From NCBI RefSeq assembly GCF_015354405.1, contig NZ_JADKYP010000001.1, positions 62,001 through 126,000 of the forward strand: DNA of 64,000 nt, given 5' to 3'. Both the position numbers and the translations under genes were made by a program. Source of the stretch: Nocardia sp. BSTN01 (lineage in GTDB: Bacteria; Actinomycetota; Actinomycetes; Mycobacteriales; Mycobacteriaceae). Every line of letters starts with the position of its first letter. Position 1 is the first letter of the stretch. Below, piece after piece: positions 46,501 to 54,000 of this stretch. The notes under the pieces were generated by a model, which searched no databases, was not told where the DNA came from, and worked only from the letters and a program-made list of their open reading frames with translations.

Positions 46501-49500
46501 GCTGACCTTCCAGAACCTGGCCCGGACCGAATTGGAGCTGCCCGGGCTGGCGGTCTCCGGTGTCGATCTCGACATCGAGCTCGCCAAGTTCGATCTGCAG
46601 CTGGCGATGGCCGAGCGGATCGACGAGCGCGGTGTGCCGCAAGGTATCTCGGCGGCCTTCAGTTACGCCACCGACCTCTTCGACGAGGCGACGGTGCGTG
46701 ATTTCACCGACCGCTTCATCCGCATCCTGAACACCGTCGCCGCCGACGCCGCGGCCGTGGTGGGCGATATCGACGTGCTGGCCCCCGGTGAGCGGGAACT
46801 CGTTCTGCACGAATGGAATTCGCCCGGCGCGCCGGTGCCGCCGGTGACCCTGGTGGATCTGATCACCGCGCAGGCCCGGCGTCGTCCCGGTGCGGTGGCG
46901 GTTCGCTTCGGCGACACCACCCTCACTTTCGGTGACCTGCACCAGCGTGCGAGTCGGGTGGCCCGGGCGCTGATCGCCCAGGGCGTGGGTCCGGAATCGC
47001 TGGTGGCGGTGGCGGTGCCGCGCACCGAGGAACTGCCGGTCGCGCTGCTCGGCGTGCTGCTCGCCGGCGCCGCCTATCTGCCGATCGACACCGGCTATCC
47101 GGCGCAGCGGCTGGAATTCATGATCGGCGACGCCGCGCCCGCCTGCGTCCTCACCACCGCCGAGCTGCGCGACGCGATACCCGCCGCCGGCCTGGCGACG
47201 GTGCTGCTGGAGGAGACCGGCAACTTCGCCGGCGGCCCGATCACCGACGCCGAGCGGCTCGCCCCGCTGCGGCCGGCCGATCTGGCCTACGTCATCTACA
47301 CCTCGGGTTCCACCGGTGTGCCCAAGGGTGTCGGCGTCACGCACCGCAATGTGCTGGAACTGTTCGCCAACACCCAGCTGCTCTTCGATTTCGACGAGAC
47401 CGACGTGTGGACGCTGTTCCACTCCTTCGCCTTCGACTTCTCGGTGTGGGAACTGTGGTGTTCGCTGGCCAACGGCGGCGCGGTCGTGGTGGTCGACCAC
47501 CTCACCTCGCGGTCGCCGGAGTTGTTCCGCGAGTTGCTGATTCGCGAACAGGTCACCGTGCTGAACCAGACGCCCTCGGCGTTCTATCAGCTCGCCGAGG
47601 CCGACCGCGCCGCGCACAGCCACACCGGCGATGCCGCGGTGACCGTCGCGGCCAAATTCGCGCTGCGCTACATCGTCTTCGGCGGTGAAGCGCTGGATCT
47701 GCGGCAGCTCGCGCGCTGGTACGAGCGGCACGGTTCCACCACGCCGCAGCTGGTGAACATGTACGGCATCACCGAGACGACGGTGCACGTGTCGTTCCTG
47801 GCCTTGGACGAGGGTCTGGCCGACCATCCGGCCAGCGTCATCGGCCGGGCGCTGCCGGGCCTGGAGACCTATGTGCTCGACGATCGGCTGCATCCGGCGC
47901 CGGTCGGGGTGGCCGGCGAGATGTACATCGCCGGACGGCAACTGTCGCGCGGTTACCTCGGGCGTCCCGGCCTGACCGCAACGCGGTTCGTGGCCAATCC
48001 CTACGGTGCGCCCAGTTCGCGGATGTATCGCTCGGGCGATATCGGCCGCTGGGCCGGCTTCGACGGCGAGGCCGCGCTGGAATACGCCGGCCGCAGCGAT
48101 CAGCAGGTGCAGCTGCGCGGCTTTCGCATCGAACTCGGCGAGATCGAGGCGGCGCTGCTGCGTTGCACCGGTGTCGCGCAGGCCGTGGCGATGGTCCGCA
48201 CCGGTGAGCACTCCGGCGATCGGCTGGTGGGTTATGTGGTGCCCGAGGCGGGCTCGTCGCTCGACCCGATCGCGCTGCGGGCCGAGGCCGGCGCCTTCCT
48301 GACCGGCTACATGGTGCCGGACGTGGTGGTCGTGCTCGACGCGCTGCCGCTGACGCCCAACGGCAAACTCGATCGTCGCGCCCTGCCCGAACCGGCGATC
48401 GTCAGCGCGGCCGCCTTCCGGGCGCCGAGTACGCCGATCGAACAGGCCGTCGCCGACGTGTTCGCCGATCTGCTCGGTGTGACCGCAGCGCAGACGTCCG
48501 GGGTCGGCCTCGACGACGACTTCTTCGCCCTCGGCGGCAATTCGCTGCTCGCGACCCGGGCGGTGGCTCGCATCAACGAGGCGCTCGACGCGAACCTCGT
48601 GGTCCGCGAACTGTTCGAGGCCTCGACGGTGGCGGCGCTCGCGGCGCGGATCGTGCCCGGCGCGGCCGCCGGTGCGGTGCGCCCGCGCCTCGCGCCGGCC
48701 GCGCGCGGCGAGCGGATTCCGCTGTCGCTGGCCCAGCAGCGGATGTGGGTGATCAACCAGCTCGATCCGCAATCCCCGGCCTACAACATTCCGCTGGCGA
48801 TCCGGCTCACCGGCGATCTCGACGTGGACGCGCTGCGTGCGGCCGTCGCCGATGTAGTGGAGCGGCACGAGGTGCTGCGCACCCGCTATCCGGCGAGCGG
48901 TCCGGGCGGGTTGCCGTATCAGGAGATCCTCTCGGTCCGCGAGGCGCTGCCGGAGGGCCTGCCGGTCGAGGACACCGCCGAGCCGATCGACCGCATCGCC
49001 GCGCTCATGGCGACCGGATTCGATGTGACCCAACAGGTTCCGGTGCGCGCCCTGCTGCTGCGCAACGGCGCCGACCAGGTGCTGGCGCTGGTGATCCATC
49101 ACATCGCCGGCGACGGTTCCTCGATGGCCCCGCTGGCCCGCGATCTGATGACCGCCTACGTGGCCCGCACCGGCAGCCGCGAACCGGGCTGGGCGCCACT
49201 GGAAGTCCAGTACGCCGATTTCGCGATCTGGCAGCGCCGGGCCATCGGCACCGACGACGATCCGGATTCGGTGGCGGCGAAGCAGCTCGCCTACTGGCGG
49301 GATCGGCTCGCCGGGGTGTCCGGTTCGCCGCTGCTGGCGCCCGATCATCCGCGTCCGGCGGTGCCGTCGATGCGCGGCGAATCGATCGGTTTCGCGATCC
49401 CGGCCGCGGTGCACGAGGGCCTGGTCCGCATTGCGCGCGAACATAATTCGTCGCTGTTCATGGTGGTGCACGCCGCGCTGGCGGTGCTGCTCGCCCGGCA

Positions 49501-51069: not shown

Positions 51070-54000
51070 ATGACGCGCCCCGCTCGGGTCCGGCCGACAC
51101 GTACTCGCCGGCCACGCGTCACCACCCTGCCCCAGCTGATGGCCACCGCGGTCGAGGCCGATCCGACCGGTACGGCCCTGGTGTTCGCCGATGCCACCAC
51201 CACGCTGGCCGAGCTCAGTTACGCCGAGCTCGACGAGCGTTCGACCCGGCTGGCCCGGCTGCTCATCGCCCGCGGCATCGGCCCGGAGGACCTGGTCGCC
51301 GTCGGTATTCCGCGGTCGGTGGAATCGGTGGTCGCGGTGTGGGCGGTCGCCAAGACCGGCGCCGGATTCGTACCCGTGGATCCGAACTACCCCGCCGATC
51401 GTGTCGCGCACATGGTTTCCGACTCCGGTGCGAAACTCGGCCTGACGGTGTCGCCGGTGCGGATGGACCTGCCCGATTCGGTGGAGTGGCTGACCGTCGA
51501 CGGTGATTTCGCCGCGCGGCTCGAGGAGTTCTCCGGCGATCCGGTCACCTACGCCGATCGGTTGCGGCCGTTGCGGGCCGAACATCCGGCCTATGTGATC
51601 TATACCTCCGGCTCGACCGGCAAGCCGAAGGGTGTCGTGGTCACCCAGGCCGGGCTGTCGAGTTTCTGCGACGAACAGCGCGAGCGGTACCGGGTCGGAA
51701 ACGACTCGCGCACCCTGCATTTCGCATCGCCGTCGTTCGACGCCTCGGTGCTGGAACTGCTACTGGCCATCGGCGGTGCGGCCGCCATGGTGGTGGCCTC
51801 GCCATCGGTGCTCGGCGGCCACGAATTGGCGAATCTGCTGCGGCGCGAACGGGTCACCCACGCCTTCGTCACGCCCGCGGCCCTGGCCTCGGTGGATCCG
51901 GCCGGGCTGGACGACCTGCGCGTCGTGGTCGCCGGTGGTGAGGCCTGCCCGCCGGAACTGGTGCGGCGCTGGGCGATCGCGATCGAGGGCGGCACCCGCG
52001 AGTTCTACAACGGGTACGGCCCGACCGAGACCACGATCATGACCAACATCAGCGCGCCGCTGGTGCCGGGGGAGACGGTCACCATCGGCGCGCCGGTGCG
52101 CGGCATCACCGAGTACGTCCTCGACGAACAGCTCGCGCGGGTGCCGCGCGGCGCGGTCGGCGAGTTGTACATCACCGGTGCGCAATTGGCGCGCGGCTAC
52201 CACCTGCGCCCCGGGCTGACCGCGGCCCGCTTCGTCGCCAACCCCTTCGACGCCGGCGGTTCGCGGCTGTACCGCACCGGCGACCTGGTGCGCTGGACGG
52301 CCGCCGGGGAACTGGAATATCTGGGCCGCAACGACTTCCAGGTCAAGATTCGCGGTTTCCGGATCGAGCTGGGCGAGATCGACGCGGTGCTGGCCGCGCA
52401 CGATTCGGTCGACTTCGCCGTCACCGTCGGCCACACCTTGCACAGCGGGGCGACGATTCTGGTGTCGTACGTGCACGCCGCCGACGGTGCGAAGGTCGAC
52501 TCCGACGAGCTGAGCGAGCATGCGGGACAGAGTCTTCCGGCCCATATGGTGCCGACGACGATCATGGTCCTGGACACGATTCCGCTGACCCCGGTCGGCA
52601 AACTGGACCGCGCGGCGCTGCCGGAACCCGTCCTGGCCGCCCGCGAATTCCGCGCGCCCTCGGGTGCGCTCGAGGAGATGGTGGCGGCCGTCTTCACCGA
52701 CCTGCTCGACCCGCCGGGGCCGGTGGGCGCCGACGACGACTTCTTCGAACTGGGCGGCAACTCGCTGATCGCCACTCAGGTCGCGGGCCGCCTGGGCGCC
52801 CAGATCTCGGCGCGGGTGCCGGCCCGGTTGCTGTTCGAGGCGGCAACGGTCGCCGAATTGGCGCAGCAGCTGGAACCGCTGAAGGGAGAGGGCGGGCGCC
52901 TGGCGCTGGCGCCGATGCCGCGTCCGGAACGCATTCCGCTCTCGCTGGCCCAGCAGCGGATGTGGTTCCTCAATCAGTTCGATCCGGAGTCGGCGGCCAA
53001 CAACATCCCGTTCGCGATCCGGCTCACCGGCGCGCTGAACGTGGACGCGCTGCAGGCGGCCGTCGCCGACGTCATCGAGCGCCACGAAACGCTGCGTACC
53101 GTCTACCCGTCCGCGGACGGAGCCGGACACCAGGTGATTCTGCCTGCGGCGCAATCGGTTCCGGATCTGGCGCCGAAACCGGTCGCCGAGGACGAACTGC
53201 CGCAGTGGCTGGCCGGATATCTGCTCGCCGGATTCGACGTGGCCGCCGAGGTGCCGCTGCGCATCGCGGTGGCCGAATTGGCGCCCGACGATCACGTCGT
53301 GGCGGTCGTGGTCCACCACATCGCCGCCGACGGCGCCTCGGTGGCGCCGTTCATGCGCGATCTGCTGGCCGCCTTCCTCGCCCGGCGCAACGGCGCCCGG
53401 CCGAGCTGGCAGCCGCTGCCGGTGCAGTACGCCGACTACGCGCTGTGGCAGCGGGCGCTGCTCGGCGACGAACGCGATCCGGAATCCCTCGCGGCCCAGC
53501 AGATCGACTACTGGCGCACGACACTGGCCGGCATTCCGGACCGGCTGGATCTGCCCGCGGACCGTCCGCGCCCGCAGATCGCCTCCGGACGCGGCGCGGA
53601 GTACACCTTCGATATCGCACCCGAGCTGCACACCCGGCTCGAGGAACTCGCCCAGCGCACCGGCACCTCGCTGTTCATGGTGGTGCACGCGGCGTTCGCG
53701 ATCCTGCTGGCCCGCTCCAGCGGCACCGACGACATCACCATCGGCACGCCGGTGGCCGGGCGCGGCGAGGCCGAACTCGACGCGCTGGTCGGCATGTTCG
53801 TCAACACCCTGGTGCTGCGTACCCGCATCGACGCCGCCACGACGGTCGAGCAGTTGCTGGCCGCGGTGAAGGACACCGATCTGGGCGCCTTCTCCCACGC
53901 CGAGCTGCCCTTCGAGCGACTGGTGGAGGTGCTCGACCCGGTCCGGTCGCAGGCGCATCATCCGCTGTTCCAGGCCGCGCTGTTCTTCCAGAACATGCAG

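Follow-up and report, generated by a model that had tools for sequence, protein, structure and literature searches.

The condensation (C) and adenylation-carrier (A-T) domains of a single nonribosomal peptide synthetase (NRPS) module can lie on separate proteins, as in the bleomycin pair BlmIV/BlmIII. A split of C and A-T also occurs between SyrE and SyrB1 of syringomycin (PMC8949500), and the text covered describes no pseudo-adenylation tail for either pair. Here, we analyzed a junction that resembles both pairs in dividing the C and A-T of one module between two proteins. The junction is located in a 64,000-nucleotide stretch of the Nocardia sp. BSTN01 genome (RefSeq assembly GCF_015354405.1, contig NZ_JADKYP010000001.1, positions 62,001 to 126,000 of the forward strand; hereafter the window), where one NRPS gene, NRPS1, ends in a C domain followed by a shortened A-like domain (the tail), and the next gene, NRPS2, begins with an A domain. 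We consider it likely that the tail is a dedicated pseudo-A domain that rejoins a module divided at its C/A boundary. It has long been asked how large NRPS proteins recognize their correct partners, and the C/A boundary is a preferred place for engineered cuts; a conserved device of natural origin at this position, if confirmed, would provide transferable parts and would allow cooperating genes to be predicted by rule, even across loci.

Three classes of NRPS docking elements, termed COM, PAX and β-hairpin, provide one close parallel (PMC9113145). As far as the covered parts of that article go, paired C- and N-terminal elements order the subunits, often through salt bridges, a likeness that would extend to the Nocardia junction; the elements themselves are short, with COM acting at epimerization/condensation (E/C) junctions and PAX at carrier/C junctions. 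The Nocardia tail differs in being a dead A half of ~262 residues, placed at a cut between C and A. The junction is C/A and not E/C as for COM, which has a helix-hand structure, and instead of the short three-helix bundle of PAX at a carrier/C boundary, no carrier precedes the cut and no C domain follows it. β-Hairpin docking domains are small N-terminal folds of that shape ahead of the next domain; judging by its sequence, the 17-residue Arg/Pro-rich peptide of NRPS2 passes straight into the A domain.

A second parallel is offered by albicidin, enduracidin and ramoplanin, where an A-T protein acts in trans to make up for an inactive A domain (PMC8949500). In those systems, within the text covered, the dead A domain stays in line and the amino acid is delivered by a separate A-T, much as proposed below. 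However, the supplying A-T is a stand-alone protein there, whereas here it forms the N-terminus of the multimodular NRPS2, and the dead A of Nocardia is a C-terminal half without T. Engineered splits of the C-A linker bearing synthetic zippers can function in trans (PMC8362031); these are, in the portion covered, man-made coiled coils, whereas nature seems to have solved the same problem in this bacterial family. Conserved Ser/Thr-rich NRPS clusters of Nocardia were described by Komaki et al. (PMC4035055), the covered parts of which mention no C-terminal A-like tail, and no description of such a tail was found in the literature searched (mostly open-licence papers, covered in part). If the proposal holds, product predictions would change for conserved Nocardia clusters with no known product.

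Architecture and conservation of the NRPS1-NRPS2 junction

NRPS1 occupies the open frame at 43487-50917 (+) of the window, and its domain order is given in Table 1 together with the features of the junction. The tail matched Pfam AMP-binding at profile positions 3-77 of 384 only (E 4.6e-15); a profile built from 74 tails matched LgrA at 4.9e-39, with positions 2-243 as the best stretch, and the tail is homologous to the N-terminal ~240 residues of A domains. The early A core, with motifs that we take to be A1/A2-like, is retained in this N-terminal part, while the ATP-loop motif (A3) is absent from the window's tail. The protein stops upstream of the region that would hold the C-terminal subdomain with its catalytic lysine motif, and a domain search of the NRPS1 frame returned neither a carrier nor AMP-binding_C after the tail. 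Domain search and motif check thus agree with an earlier sequence-only reading of the window, which had described a shortened A-like tail without ATP loop or carrier; its observation that NRPS2 starts directly with an intact A-T was likewise confirmed by domain reading. NRPS2 opens with A-T-C and has no C domain ahead of its first A. The start codon is most likely ATG 51070, with GGAAG upstream, and the codons ahead of it in the longest frame differ among relatives. This longest frame of 5652 residues extends beyond the window and ends with a thioesterase. Together, NRPS1 and NRPS2 contain seven intact A domains.

On the reading that we favor, one elongation module would be divided, with C as the final catalytic domain on NRPS1 and A-T at the start of NRPS2. 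The tail, as a catalytically dead half-A, would occupy the slot after C where a cis A would stand, and would probably recruit NRPS2, partly via an acidic surface contacting the Arg/Pro-rich peptide—which would give the aminoacyl-T of NRPS2 access to the NRPS1 C domain from its acceptor side. Physical binding of the tail to NRPS2, condensation in trans and the face involved in binding are what we infer from the comparisons that follow, and by the same comparisons the tail is real and probably functional.

Table 1. Features of the NRPS1-NRPS2 junction (positions refer to the window)
Feature	Position	Strand	Remark
NRPS1	43556..50917	+	A-T-C-A-T-C-pseudoA; ATG 43556 is the likely start
NRPS1 Arg-rich N-terminal peptide, 20 residues	43556..43615	+	Immediately ahead of an intact A
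NRPS1 last condensation domain	48713..50050	+	HHxxxDG intact
NRPS1 C-terminal pseudo-adenylation domain (tail)	50114..50914	+	Frame residues ~2210-2476
Tail motif, 16 residues, conserved	50489..50536	+	From the alignment of tails
Tail motif ELDFESRTF, conserved	50621..50647	+	Its E is tail-specific
Tail acidic patch	50732..50851	+	Mean charge ~-8.5 in tails vs ~-2.3 in intact A halves
Tail motif ADEWVTHLF, conserved	50753..50779	+	Its W is missing from 24/24 intact A halves compared
NRPS1/NRPS2 intergenic gap	50918..51069	.	152 bp; both genes on the same strand
NRPS2 Arg/Pro-rich N-terminal peptide (MTRPARVRPTRTRRPRV)	51070..51120	+	Proposed tail partner
NRPS2 first A domain, core and C-terminal subdomain, intact	51163..52602	+	ATP loop present
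NRPS2 first carrier (T) domain	52681..52869	+	Would act as acceptor for the terminal C of NRPS1

An open frame of 2136 residues runs antisense to NRPS1 (43469-49879, -) and was taken as a GC-rich shadow frame.

Queried in frame, the tail gave matches at E<=1e-12 in every one of 151 Nocardia genomes, and in 132 of these at E<=1e-40. Adjacency was counted over 111 tail rows, comprising 70 Nocardia rows from the in-frame search (30 fetched by the search and 40 picked from the match list; 69 loci), 36 rows from other genera, four Nocardia rows found by profile and the tail on contig C127 of the window's genome; with one locus of genome G069 entered twice, these rows represent 110 distinct loci. 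The tail stands at the C-terminus in every one of the 70 Nocardia rows and measures 254-283 residues (median 262), close to the ~275 residues given by the sequence-only reading. An A-first gene follows within 700 bp in 68 of these 70 rows by a first count and in 69 by a later one; over the entire set, an A-first NRPS gene comes next in 102 of the 111 rows, or 101 of 110 distinct loci. A set of 78 tails from named species, which overlaps the 111 rows and has species in common with them, gave an A-first gene within 900 bp in 76 cases; the two exceptions are L194, with an NRPS frame that begins 644 bp downstream and first matches A at residue 169, and L203, with just 97 bp of contig left after the tail. 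Support of exactly this kind, i.e., conservation of the tail at C-termini ahead of A-first genes, had been anticipated by the sequence-only reading, and the conserved adjacency also supports its proposal that the last C of NRPS1 serves the first A-T of NRPS2.

The tail profile was also run on 251 genomes of the family, where the weaker matches include intact A domains. Tails were confirmed beyond Nocardia in seven genus codes (g2, g6, g10, g16, g20, g26 and g27), all of them C-terminal and 33 of 36 with an A-first gene next; such a neighbor is found in seven of the eight tail-bearing genus codes, the exception being g26 with one locus. The tail is general in this bacterial family, and what had been called an unusual way to divide a module is common there. 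Outside the family, searches at the level of the order and the class gave no tail match at E<=1e-55 (249 genomes) or at E<=1e-52 (296 genomes), strict thresholds that distant tails could escape. Both findings that would have overturned the sequence-only reading, an assembly error or absence of the tail in all close relatives, failed to appear: four near relatives carry the tail at 93-96% identity, and tail identities of 94-96% place the window close to Nocardia nova, N. elegans and N. africana. A sequencing or assembly error is barely credible, given that the same tail, stop and next gene recur in many independent assemblies, some of them single-contig.

Catalytic state and selection of the tail

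The P-loop pattern occurs in none of the 111 tail rows, compared with 92 of 98 partner A domains, and HHxxxDG is present in 84 of 89 terminal C domains that precede tails. Tree reconstruction placed 62 tails on one side of a branch and 24 intact A halves on the other; in a wider tree, obtained with a quick method, 38 tails formed one clade against 81 intact A halves, with a Shimodaira-Hasegawa-like approximate likelihood ratio test (SH-aLRT) value of 99.8. Tails also hold residues seldom found in intact A halves, e.g., the W of EWVTHLF. Over 45 pairs drawn from 10 relatives, the ratio of nonsynonymous to synonymous substitution rates (dN/dS) spanned 0.09-0.33 in the tail and 0.09-0.29 in the adjoining C domain, which points to purifying selection about as strong on the tail as on C. 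By clade structure and selection, the tail is a domain family of its own and not the relic that the sequence-only reading had taken it for.

These data also bear on whether the tail could be a neutral scar of gene fission, open by chance, which we regard as highly improbable. A scar would account for the homology to a first A half with the catalytic motifs gone, for the tail frame that breaks off in G038 and for the diverged tail end that is all that was seen in G008; it accounts poorly for selection like that on C, for the narrow length range in the 70 Nocardia rows, for conserved residues found in tails only and for a single clade that spans genera. Moreover, most tails inspected displayed neither a dN/dS near 1 nor frequent truncation.

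Charge complementarity, joint absence and exceptions to pairing

Partner proteins begin with an Arg/Pro-rich peptide that leads into the first helix of the A domain. The 32 residues ahead of the partner A carry a charge of +5 to +11 in all 102 rows, compared with -6 to +2 for 38 C-A linkers internal to proteins of the window's genome. The net charge of the tails is -14 to -35 (median -21), and that of the matching part of intact A domains in the same linker set is -18 to +2 (median -8). The extra acid is concentrated close to the tail end; part of the excess that appears over tail residues 1-8 stems from an edge effect in the alignment.

Joint absence of the two elements was assessed in the nine genomes with the weakest tail matches, a small sample chosen after the fact. 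In six of them (G012, G014, G027, G040, G071 and G148), no NRPS1-type tail and no NRPS2 peptide were found, and the only tail present is that of a giant NRPS, described below. The peptide is present in the other three (G008, G038 and G093), all of which have tail pieces; in G093, the last part of the tail lies directly ahead of the peptide-bearing start. The two-contig genome G027 encodes one protein of 5142 residues with an NRPS1-type start and no tail, in which the second C leads directly into an A domain that shares 76% identity with NRPS2 A1 (the best match in that set). At this closed junction, both tail and peptide are absent. An NRPS1-type protein of G003 (3025 residues, no tail) was considered as a clean NRPS1-NRPS2 fusion and rejected because its third A is not NRPS2-like; G027 is the better case, with the reservation that its second A, too, resembles NRPS2 A2 more closely than NRPS1 A2.

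The main rival explanation holds that the tail is only a structural cap keeping the terminal C domain folded, with the two proteins meeting via the Arg-rich peptide elsewhere or via other contacts. We consider this unlikely. A cap would suit the extent of the tail, which covers the part of A that comes after the C-A linker, and also the higher tail dN/dS (0.31-0.40; three pairs, not independent) at L183, L201 and L206, i.e., in N. jiangxiensis, N. macrotermitis and N. vaccinii, which lost the C domain that precedes the tail. However, tails persist without C in these very species, and a cap leaves unexplained the acidic patch, the basic N-termini downstream, the A-first neighbor and why tail and peptide are missing together. 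The complementary charges and this shared absence would favor docking over a cap. NRPS1 of the same three loci has lost the A-C subdomain, T and C, and its second A has a degenerate ATP loop.

An A-first start is the classic architecture of a loading module, and NRPS1 itself is A-first; NRPS2 could accordingly be an independent initiating synthetase, with the last C of NRPS1 releasing or cyclizing its own product. This is quite improbable in view of the short gap between two genes on the same strand, the recurrence of the A-first neighbor across genus codes, the presence of a thioesterase match in NRPS2 and of none in NRPS1, and the occurrence of C and an NRPS2-type A within one protein in G027. 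In addition, the covered parts of Komaki et al. (PMC4035055) read neighboring genes of such Nocardia clusters—presumably including this one—as a single line.

Several observations weigh against docking by the tail as we propose it. Nine tail rows lack an adjacent A-first partner: five are giant-NRPS tails of Nocardia (L012 and L265-L268), L256 has ~3 kb of other sequence between tail and partner, and no A-first neighbor was present in the 2.3-3.2 kb after the tails of L121, L229 and L234. Genomes G014, G040 and G071, whose NRPS1 starts are identical to that of the window, show no tail, and their contigs end inside the last C; a fused NRPS1 form is possible there because the frame reaches the contig edge within that domain. 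The three loci that lost C retain both tail and A-first partner, and the relaxed constraint on their tails counts on the same side. In five genomes (G023, G091, G115, G131 and G150), the tail precedes an NRPS1-type and not an NRPS2-type start, as confirmed in sequence for G150, where NRPS1-type genes stand in tandem; pairing of tail and partner is therefore not strictly type-to-type. An AlphaFold model of C plus tail speaks in favor by its mean predicted local distance difference test score of 89 (predicted template modeling score 0.63); against, C-A didomain structures (Txo2, LgrA and SrfA-C) align over C plus tail only at a root-mean-square deviation of 19-20 Å, so that the known C:A placement is not reproduced. 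Finally, tail and partner charges are anticorrelated over the 102 rows (rho -0.37), but the relation is not significant over 24 clusters (p=0.08), and charge covariation was dropped as support for pairing since it fades once rows are clustered.

Further variants of the junction were noted along the way. The end of the last C in G071, G014 and G040 (L338, L339 and L340) differs from that of the window, and a different, perhaps fused, architecture is possible in these genomes. The NRPS2-type A-first proteins encoded in tandem at G120:C1:1641028-1668945 (4633 and 4575 residues) both come after a single tail, which may therefore serve two partners. Another C/A split is found on contig C139 of the window's genome (L019, 4487-4888 and 4891-5169, -), where the upstream NRPS ends in an A-like stub of ~90 residues and the next begins with a similar stub ahead of an intact A; the N-terminal stub region of this type was found in 35 of 59 Nocardia.

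A second tail and the giant NRPS of Nocardia

The window's genome contains a second tail, tail1, at the end of a 6605-residue open frame on C127, truncated at the edge of the contig. In many Nocardia, tail1 ends a frame of 12-18 thousand residues; the one such Nocardia protein read through, from G120, comprises a starter-like C and 12 A domains. No NRPS gene follows tail1 in the five Nocardia inspected. In other genera, A-first starts homologous to the NRPS1 N-terminus come after the tail: an NRPS1-like A-first protein follows the tail1 gene directly in G194, G165 and G225 and across an insert in G209, and also, with a 1.5 kb gap, in Nocardia G003. The insert of G209 (C12, about 712700-715960) amounts to ~3 kb of other sequence between the tail gene and its A-first partner. 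The first A of the proteins after tail1 groups with the first A of NRPS1 (SH-aLRT 98) in a clade of 10 rows, two of them from the same locus, with G165 and G225 represented by rows L237 and L253; the N-termini of these proteins show the RRRRSG pattern of NRPS1, and the Nocardia tail1 clusters with the G194 and G165 tails (92).

In at least 27 Nocardia genomes, the tail1 and NRPS1 loci lie on one contig at a distance of 1.4 Mb or more, and they are adjacent only in G003 among the matches listed. The window's genome has two such tails and two such N-termini, and the giant NRPS may therefore be a docking partner of NRPS1 in trans; because the two genes adjoin in other genera, the same device could link NRPS1 to the distant giant in most Nocardia. 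This leads to a broader and distinctly tentative proposal, which we regard as possible though doubtful: a family-wide docking code of dead A domains and Arg/Pro-rich peptides would rejoin modules cut between C and A and, in most Nocardia, would also join a giant starter-C NRPS more than 1 Mb away to NRPS1 and then NRPS2, giving one assembly line from two unlinked loci. By module count, the seven-residue gene pair and the 12-module cluster in the covered parts of Komaki et al. (PMC4035055) fit NRPS1 plus NRPS2 and the giant, respectively. Tail1 was matched in 135 of 151 Nocardia genomes and the NRPS1 N-terminus in 149. Against a link between the loci, 16 genomes without a tail1 match still have the NRPS1 N-terminus; the two without that N-terminus, G034 and G060, have tail1. 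With these 16 plus two discordant genomes, co-occurrence by itself gives no support for pairing in trans. The five genomes with an NRPS1-type start directly after another tail, and the two NRPS2-type partners behind one tail in G120, also speak against it. A 17,344-residue NRPS of G116 was examined as a fusion of the giant with NRPS1 and rejected, the A after its E-C junction not being NRPS1-like. Upstream of NRPS1, the window further encodes two AMP-binding (acyl-CoA-ligase-like) proteins at 35417-37087 and 38057-39691.

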